DNA from: Deltaproteobacteria bacterium
GTDB taxonomy: Bacteria; Desulfobacterota; Desulfarculia; Adiutricales; Adiutricaceae
NCBI GenBank assembly: GCA_031278635.1
Contig: JAITKA010000064.1
Location: forward strand, 1 to 64,000
Reading direction: 5' to 3'
DNA: 64,000 bases
Positions 10,930 through 16,378 of the stretch are shown piece after piece; positions within the stretch are counted from its first letter, which is position 1, and each line of letters starts with the position of its first letter. The position numbers and the translations under genes are program-made. The notes below the pieces were generated by a model, which saw only the letters and a program-made list of their open reading frames with translations, made no database searches and was not told the origin of the DNA.

Positions 10930-11006
10930 TGGGGCGTCGTCAAGTGGTTTAAGACACAGGGTTTTGGTTCCTGCATTCGAAGGTTCGAATCCTTCCGCCC
11001 CAGCCA
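10930..11006 (+). tRNA. tRNA-Gln (anticodon TTG)
   Basis: 77 bases including an encoded CCA. Acceptor TGGGGCG pairs with CGCCCCA, discriminator G, then CCA. The anticodon stem CAGGG/TCCTG holds loop TTTTGGT with anticodon TTG (reads CAA). The T arm is GAAGG-TTCGAAT-CCTTC. The U1-A72 pair is typical of bacterial tRNA-Gln. It lies between ispE and prs. Confidence 0.95.
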
Positions 11007-14102: not shown

Positions 14103-14130
14103 TTGACAATGACTTTCGCTGTGGTATACT
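14103..14130 (+). promoter_or_regulatory. strong sigma-70 promoter of the fhs transcript
   Basis: TTGACA (14103-14108), 16 bases, TATACT (14125-14130). Nearly consensus in both boxes. It is the best promoter in the AT-rich gap of 870 bases before fhs and implies transcription from about 14137. Confidence 0.75.
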
Positions 14131-14136
14131 GCCTTT

Positions 14137-14526
14137 CACCTAAACGGATCGGTCGCTTCCCAAGAGCTTAAATATTGAGACGGGCAAATTTTGTTTAGAT
14201 ATTTTGTTGGCCCAAAGGTCCATTTTCGCCCGGATCCCGGCGGATGGGCCAATCGGTTCGAAACGAGAGATGGCCAACGGCCCGGAGCGGATAACGTTCC
14301 CGGCCCGAACCCCTGGAATAAAACCATTGTTTCGGGGGGCTGGATTAACCCCAAACCCTGGGAATGGGTTTTTTTGTCTTCAATCCAATCTCACCTTATC
14401 ACAGATGGTGGTGGCTTTCCGACCGCGTACCTAGGTTGGTCCCGGAAGCCGTAGCCAGGCCCCGGCCGCTGAAGATCCCTGTGCCGGGGGAAAATCAAGA
14501 ATTCCAAAATTACGGAGGAATCTTTC
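14137..14526 (+). promoter_or_regulatory. long fhs leader with internal terminator-like hairpin
   Basis: The predicted leader is about 390 bases. It contains an 8-bp stem ttggccca/tgggccaa (14207-14214 with 14245-14252) and, at 14353-14371, AAACCC-tgggaat-GGGTTT followed by more T, which resembles an intrinsic terminator inside the leader. Two readings: transcription attenuation of fhs, or a separate small RNA of about 235 nt ending at 14375. Conserved cores of the ZTP, SAM-I, cobalamin and glycine riboswitches were looked for by eye and not found. fhs has its own strong ribosome site (ggagg, 14515-14519). Confidence 0.5.
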
Positions 14527-16308
14527 ATGGCTTTAAAATGGCAAGACTTGACCGCCAAGGGCGCCAAGGATTACGAAATCGCCGAGGCGGCCGAAGCGTC
14601 TCAATTGAGGAAAATTAAGGACGTAGCCGCCGGCATCGGCCTCACCGATGACGAGGTACTCCCTTATGGGCATTATATCGCCAAAATCGACTACGCCAAG
14701 GTGCTTAGCCGTTTGGGCAATAAGCCCGATGGCAAATACATCGACGTTACCGCCATCACCCCGACCCCCTTGGGCGAAGGCAAGTCCACCACCACCATGG
14801 GCCTGGTCCAGGGCATGGGCCACCTCGGCCTGAACGTCACCGCGGCCATCCGTCAGCCCTCCGGCGGCCCGACCATGAACATCAAGGGCTCGGCGGCCGG
14901 CGGCGGCATGAGCCAGTGCGTTCCCCTGACCCCCTTCTCGCTGGGCCTGACCGGCGACATCAACGCCATCATGAACTCCCACAACCTGGCGATGGTGGCC
15001 GTCAACTCCCGCATGCAGCACGAGCGCAACTATGACGACGCCACCCTGGCCAAGCGCGGCCTGAAGCGTCTCGACATCGACCCCACCAGGGTCGAGTTCG
15101 GCTTCATCCTTGACTTCGCCGCCCAATGCCTCCGCAAGATCATAATCGGCCTCGGCGGGAAGCAGGACGGCTACCTGATGGAGTCCAAGTTCGGCATCGC
15201 CGTCAGCTCCGAGATCATGGCCATCCTGGCCGTGGCCGCCGACCTCAAGGACCTGCGCGCCCGCCTCGGCCGCATCGTCGTGGCATACGACAAGAAGGGT
15301 AACCCCGTCACCACCTCGGATCTCGACGTGGCCGGGGCCATGACCGCCTGGATGGTCGAGGCCATGAACCCGAACCTCATGCAGACCCTCGAGGGCCAGC
15401 CCTGCTTCGTCCACGCCGGCCCCTTCGCCAACATCGCCATCGGCCAGAGCTCCATCGTGGCCGACCGCCTGGCCCTTAAGCTCTCCGACTACCACGTGAC
15501 CGAGTCCGGCTTCGCCGCCGACATCGGTTTCGAGAAGTTCTGGAACCTCAAGTGCCGCTTCTCCGGCCTCATCCCCAACGCCGCGGTCATCGTGGCCACG
15601 GTCAGGGCCCTCAAGTGCCACGGCGGCGCGCCCATCCCCGCCCCCGGCAAGCCCCTGCCCGAGGAGTACAAGGTCCCCAACGTCGGCCAGGTCGAGAAGG
15701 GCTGCGAGAACCTCCTCCACCACGTTAACGTGGTCAAGAAGTCCGGCATCAGCCCGGTCGTCTGCATCAACTCCTTCGTGACCGACACGGCCGACGAGAT
15801 CAAGGCCATCCGCGACGCCTGCGTGGCCGCCGGCGCCCGCGTGGCCGTCTCCGATCACTGGCTGAAGGGCGGCGAGGGCGCCATAGAGCTCGCCAACGCC
15901 GTTAAGGACGCCTGCGAGGACGTGCCCAAGTTCAAGTTCCTCTACGACCTCGACCAGCCCCTCAAGGACCGCGTCGAGATCATCGCCAAGGAGGTCTACG
16001 GGGCCGACGGCGTGGATTACAACCCCGACGCCCTCAAGAAGCTCGAGGGCTTCCAGAAGGATCCGGCCACGGCCAAGCTGGGCCTCTGCATGGTCAAGAC
16101 CCACCTGTCGCTGTCCGATAACCCGACCATCAAGGGCGTGCCCAAGGGCTGGAAACTGTTCGTCCGCGACGTCCTGATCTACGCCGGCGCCGGTTTCGTG
16201 GTGCCCGTCGCCGGGGCCATCACCCTCATGCCCGGTACCGCCTCCGACCCGGCCTATCGCCGCGTGGACGTCGATACCGAGACCGGCAAGGTCAAGGGCC
16301 TCTTCTAG
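14527..16308 (+). CDS. fhs: formate-tetrahydrofolate ligase
   Basis: ATP-dependent formation of 10-formyl-THF from formate; key step of the methyl branch of the Wood-Ljungdahl pathway and also a source of one-carbon units. 593 residues (family about 555-600). Visible motifs: the P-loop [14 protein letters not shown], the FTHFS signature [16 protein letters not shown], the segment [18 protein letters not shown], and a C-terminal [12 protein letters not shown]. Very high C-ending codon use suggests strong expression. With two formate dehydrogenases in the same window it provides the CO2-formate-formyl-THF route. It ends at a shared terminator opposite the macB genes. Confidence 0.97.
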
Positions 16309-16342: not shown

Positions 16343-16378
16343 AAAAAAAAACCGCCGCGAAAGCGGCGGTTTTTTTTT
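16343..16378. terminator. bidirectional terminator between fhs and macB
   Basis: A-run, accgccgc (16351-16358), gaaa tetraloop, gcggcggt (16363-16370), T-run. Perfect stem with both A and T tracts; serves the convergent fhs and MacB-type operon. Confidence 0.93.

Follow-up and report, generated by a model that had tools for sequence, protein, structure and literature searches.

The gene fhs is probably controlled through its leader RNA, because it is preceded by a folded leader that related bacteria have kept by matched base changes. On the comparisons reported here, we think it rather likely that this leader of about 390 nt works in cis as a structured regulatory 5' UTR, specific to one lineage, in which two elements would act at different levels: E2, close to the ribosome binding site (RBS), on translation, and E1, restricted to one genus, on transcript elongation.

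fhs encodes a formate-tetrahydrofolate ligase of 593 aa and occupies positions 14527..16308 (+ strand, as for all the leader features below) of the window, i.e. the whole stretch of 64,000 nucleotides that was analysed. The window belongs to a metagenome-assembled genome (MAG) of the Adiutricaceae (Thermodesulfobacteriota, class Desulfarculia), and the public records matching it are gut MAGs. Adiutricaceae are putative acetogens of termites (Arora et al. 2022, PMC9137090); in termite guts reductive acetogenesis is a main hydrogen sink, and this family is among its candidate agents (PMC9137090). The acetyl-CoA synthase family gene acsB is present in the same genome, so fhs probably serves acetogenesis there. 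Thirty-one of the 37 Adiutricaceae genomes carry fhs and its upstream DNA was read for 29 of them; all the genomes compared are assemblies, and the analysis of the leader rests on sequence. On the 3' side of fhs (16344-16377) a strong inverted repeat, AAAAAACCGCCGC...GCGGCGGTTTTTT, is likely a terminator shared with the convergent gene.

The conserved element next to the start codon

E2 (14404..14526), the conserved core of the leader, is a structured element of 123 nt that lies downstream of a terminator-like hairpin and abuts the fhs start codon. It was found in 16 genomes from five genera, always directly upstream of fhs. Its first helix, P1 (14406..14457), consists of an outer TGGT/GCCA stem, an internal loop and an inner GGCTTTC/GGAAGCC stem, and is conserved in genera g1 (that of the window), g4 and g11. 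P1 hardly varies in g1, where its predicted pairing is based on conservation and folding rather than proved by covariation. The fhs leaders of g7 (L022-L026) have in its place a different covarying stem, capped by a conserved C(U)CGCCAA(A)-type loop. Therefore the two halves of E2 evolve separately.

The second helix, P2 (14460..14489), is the best supported of E2. Nine pairs close a loop of 11-12 nt, CTGAAGATCCC in the window (consensus YURANGANCCC), and in the hand alignment of the 16 genomes 141 of 144 cells are canonical, and 6 of the 9 pairs have changed on both sides. In g11 (L019, L020) a U-rich run (UUUUUAUUAA, UUAUUUUUAA) comes after P2, which could itself function as a terminator in these genomes. 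Next to the gene, a Shine-Dalgarno (SD) hairpin (14501..14521) pairs ATTCC with GGAAT around GGAGG (14514-14518). Wherever the RBS is complete (15 genomes), this pairing is kept by position, with no covariation. The hairpin is weak in the window (-2.8 kcal/mol). According to the folding model, most g7 genomes have their SD almost fully paired; in the rest, the window included, it is only partly so.

Over the 16 sequences of E2, 93.5% of cells are paired, versus 83.1% in shuffles; sliding the structure leaves at most 54%. In the same set, 14 of 25 pairs show both-side changes versus 6.9 in shuffles, on an alignment that was fitted to its structure and so favours it. The hand alignments of E1 and E2 were made by eye; the g1 sequences are related, and the shuffles keep this relatedness.

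A covariance model of E2 was built from ten sequences (g1, g11 and g4); its E-values, like those of the E1 model, are rough owing to a short calibration. It gives exactly one strong match per E2 genome, each directly upstream of fhs. Two genera outside the model are recovered in the same way: for g7 the fhs leader is the best match in each of the five fhs-bearing genomes (E 4e-5 to 5e-3); for g3 the fhs leader matches at E 5e-11. The model search did not find E2 in g2, g5, g6, g8 and g9, where fhs is present, and nothing credible appeared outside the family in 63 genomes of the class or in 395 genomes drawn from the phylum. A match in G421 (E 0.008 over these 395 genomes) is expected by chance. 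BLAST matches resembling E2 away from fhs in G011 and G008 are also attributed to chance, both lying in protein-coding DNA, and weak matches of the model at six other places lie within or beside open reading frames, or where no gene is evident, with no common context.

The g6 leaders (Candidatus Adiutrix, L029-L031), which lack E2, have a different hairpin in common, with GCATACGGAGG at the RBS, formed by CACAACC...GGTTGTG in two of the three. Judged from its position, it is perhaps a replacement for E2.

The promoter and the genus-specific element

A sigma-70-type promoter, TTGACA-N16-TATACT with a TG-extended -10, is found at 14103..14130 and has 11 of 12 matches. The other ten E2 genomes outside g7 (genera g1, g3, g4 and g11) have a TTGACA / TATAMT-type promoter at the matching place, and the five g7 genomes keep only the extended -10, TGNTATAAT. 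The length of about 390 nt is counted from this conserved promoter to fhs, with the start deduced from the -10; no promoter-like site was found between the terminator-like hairpin of E1 and fhs. In G005 (L016), G002 (L017), G003 (L018), G004 (L021), G008 (L027) and G001 (L012) a TCTAGA palindrome stands at a nearly fixed distance, some 38-40 bases, upstream of the start of the -35, and it also occurs upstream of the fhs promoter of G006. By its placement it could be a regulator site; the 64-kb window contains TCTAGA a single time, and not upstream of its fhs promoter.

The 5' part of the leader (14137..14275, its start again taken from the -10) is predicted by folding to be structured and is poorly conserved. 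The motif GACYGCRG[CA] is present in this part in the other six g1 genomes, 98-117 bases after the -10. The window genome does not have it (lost or diverged) and shows a different hairpin at 14215-14250. The folding energy of the whole leader is unremarkable for this sequence alone (z -0.82; 5' part, z -1.52).

E1 (14276..14383) is made of three hairpins, A, B and C, the last of which is terminator-like. Across six g1 genomes, aligned from sequence alone and without structure, 94.2% of cells are paired versus 87.0% in shuffles (and at most 67% when slid), and 11 of 29 pairs are changed on both sides versus 5.0 in shuffles; none of 500 shuffles reaches either value. The hand alignment of E1 agrees with this one. 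Hairpin A (14279..14305; GGCCCGGAGCG / CGTTCCCGGCC) has 59 of 64 cells canonical and 4 pairs with double changes. Hairpin B (14310..14338; CCCCTGGAATAA / TTGTTTCGGGGG) has 61 of 62 and 8 such pairs, and is flanked by invariant CCCGAAC and by GGGG[CT]TGGA. Hairpin C (14347..14375) contains AAACCC, 7 nt and GGGTTT (14353-14371) followed by T, within 14353-14375, with the U run at 14369-14375. Its stem is weak in the window (-6.2 kcal/mol, with a 7-U run); in G005, G002, G001 and G006 it reaches -10.6 to -16.3 kcal/mol with four U, and G004 is devoid of the U run. In this one sequence 3 terminator-like sites were found versus 3.1 expected in shuffles, and hairpin C alone is at chance level. It rises above chance because hairpins A to C recur in five congeners with compensatory changes. 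As judged from these alignments, E1 is a real structured element.

E1 is absent from the other genera, and from G003, which has E2. Its covariance model, built from six sequences and briefly calibrated, gives convincing scores only in fhs leaders; the matches at E 1e-5 to 1 that it returns in nearly all genomes are GC-rich hairpins out of fhs context and are ascribed to chance. In G001 (L012) and G006 (L014) the separation between E1 and E2 is roughly 250 bases longer than in the window, and in G006 this stretch holds another terminator-like hairpin, AGCCAU-AAAA-AUGGCU-UUUUUC. For terminators in general, 15 were found upstream of E2 versus 4-11 in ten shuffle sets, a mild excess only.

The GGGG strand of hairpin B is complementary to the CCCC strand of hairpin C, which is the classical arrangement of an attenuator. 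A classical 2:3 antiterminator was nevertheless rejected: in every genome tested the alternative fold loses to the terminator fold by about 5-12 kcal/mol, and in the model E1 would be terminator-on by default. Regulation by E1, attenuation included, is plausible, but within a single genus and with a weak terminator.

These results bear on a preliminary description of the leader made from the window alone. The near-consensus promoter that it reported is confirmed and kept in relatives, and the AAACCC...GGGTTT hairpin is present as described, although it took the comparison with congeners to lift it above chance. Its idea of a structured regulatory leader gains from the covariance analysis of the relatives' fhs leaders that it had proposed as a check, since conserved structure with covariation was found; it had missed E2, the most conserved part. 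Its attenuator is plausible, but is weakened by the restriction to one genus, the feeble stem and the cost of the alternative fold.

Weighing of the explanations

Chance is disfavoured as an explanation of the conservation. The leader has the covarying RNA structure in a 5' UTR that is the general criterion for riboswitches, and it offers two candidate expression platforms, the terminator-like hairpin (14353-14375) and the SD hairpin (14501-14521), whose coupling to an aptamer is putative. A riboswitch, a protein-binding site or a stability element would nevertheless look similar in sequence data.

It is conceivable, if on the unlikely side, that E2 (or E1) is a metabolite riboswitch aptamer responding to tetrahydrofolate (THF), 10-formyl-THF, formate or another one-carbon signal and controlling SD access or termination. 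The conserved loop, the compact two-hairpin shape beside the SD hairpin and the control of a single gene of one-carbon metabolism are consistent with it, as are the published candidate before fhs in Leptotrichia (PMC11109978) and the presence of acsB, with the probable role in acetogenesis that this suggests. But only one gene per genome carries E2, its distribution is very narrow, Rfam did not recover a known aptamer core and nothing points to a ligand. More doubtful still is a more specific proposal, in which E2 would be a new class of riboswitch aptamer, reading a one-carbon signal (formate, a form of THF or a related cofactor) and adjusting the step by which termite-gut Adiutricaceae enter the methyl branch of acetogenesis, with E1 as a tandem transcriptional switch in one genus. 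If the leader does bind a one-carbon metabolite, it would represent a new class of sensor.

A protein, either CsrA or, by autoregulation, formate-tetrahydrofolate ligase itself, could instead bind in the P2 loop or at the GGA motifs close to the SD; we regard this as unlikely. A conserved loop on a covarying stem is typical of protein-binding hairpins in general, and ACGGA is found in the loop of the SD hairpin in most g1 and g11 genomes. For CsrA, however, GGA is common in SD sequences and the conserved P2 loop has none. The gene csrA is present in 34 of the 37 Adiutricaceae genomes, that of the window included, and is equally frequent in those with and without E2. It therefore fails to discriminate and, being so widespread in the family, neither supports nor excludes the role of CsrA.

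To a similar degree improbable is a constitutive stabilising or insulating 5' UTR, whose hairpins would slow the decay of a heavily expressed mRNA without responding to any signal. Hairpins near the RBS can stabilise mRNA, and the 5' UTR of fhs1 in Acetobacterium bakii altered reporter mRNA levels with temperature (PMC6239172). Such a function does not, however, need an invariant loop of 11-12 nt kept across five genera, and it leaves the terminator inside the leader unexplained.

The preliminary description had also considered an independent small RNA, here E1 ending at the 14376 terminator with fhs transcribed separately. The succession of a promoter, a structured stretch of some 240 nt and a terminator-like hairpin would agree with it, as would the much longer separation of E1 and E2 in G001 and G006. 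This is now disfavoured and seems very improbable: fhs has no promoter-like site of its own after the hairpin, E1 is convincing only in fhs leaders, the terminator is weak, G003 does without E1, and the element with the best conservation is located past the terminator, beside the start codon. Lastly, a short coding sequence (a leader peptide or an N-terminal extension) can hardly account for the conservation: the frame from ATGGTGGTG at the start of E2 does run far in some congeners and joins fhs in G001 and G003, but stops interrupt it in G000, G002 and g11, the frames are not conserved, the changes in P2 are compensatory, and the P2 loop lies 58-62 nt from the fhs ATG, a spacing for which every remainder modulo 3 occurs among the genomes, so the E2 block is not coding.

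We thus retain a cis-acting structured regulatory 5' UTR as the best explanation. Transcription would start at the conserved promoter about 390 nt upstream of fhs, and E1, where present, would set the fraction of transcripts that reach the gene. E2 would then set the access of ribosomes to the SD site, P1 and the P2 loop receiving a signal and the SD hairpin responding to it. Our search of the literature found no account of how Adiutricaceae control acetogenesis, and the conserved fhs leader RNA provides a concrete, testable handle on it. This case also shows that what is conserved most strongly in a leader may sit beyond an eye-catching terminator.

Relation to known leader RNAs

Rfam searches at gathering and permissive thresholds matched no family in the leader (E up to 10 for the window, E up to 5 for the leaders of 12 relative loci); above threshold, the window contains only a tRNA (10930-11003). 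The preliminary description, which had proposed such a scan, was thus right in recognising no known riboswitch core. The THF-I and THF-II riboswitches would fit the pathway, being, as is proposed for the fhs leader, cases of folate gene control by leader RNA, but their covariance models match neither the window nor the relatives at permissive E. A T-box leader was likewise rejected: no model matches, and the GGUGG...ACCGCG string (14407-14427) is not kept in G002, G022 and G016.

The fhs1 gene of Acetobacterium bakii has a temperature-responsive 5' UTR of 48 nt that affects the mRNA level (PMC6239172). This is also the fhs 5' UTR of an acetogen, but of a Firmicute and much shorter, and the likeness meant here is one of gene.

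The closest parallel is the fhsA motif (WRC-63-1), presented by Narunsky et al. 2024 as a weak riboswitch candidate before fhs in Leptotrichia and in unnamed environmental sequences (PMC11109978). Both RNAs lie upstream of a formate-tetrahydrofolate ligase gene. Compared by description, the motif shows, as in E1, a hairpin followed by a terminator-like hairpin, with possible competition between the two. The competing pairing is there a pseudoknot, whereas between hairpins B and C of E1 it would be the GGGG/CCCC pairing, in the fold that is about 5-12 kcal/mol worse. E2 does not fit this description: it lacks a terminator in the window genome and is located on the SD, and the text on the motif mentions no RBS-proximal element. 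With the fhsA motif of Leptotrichia, described in 2024, the idea of a regulatory RNA before fhs has a precedent.
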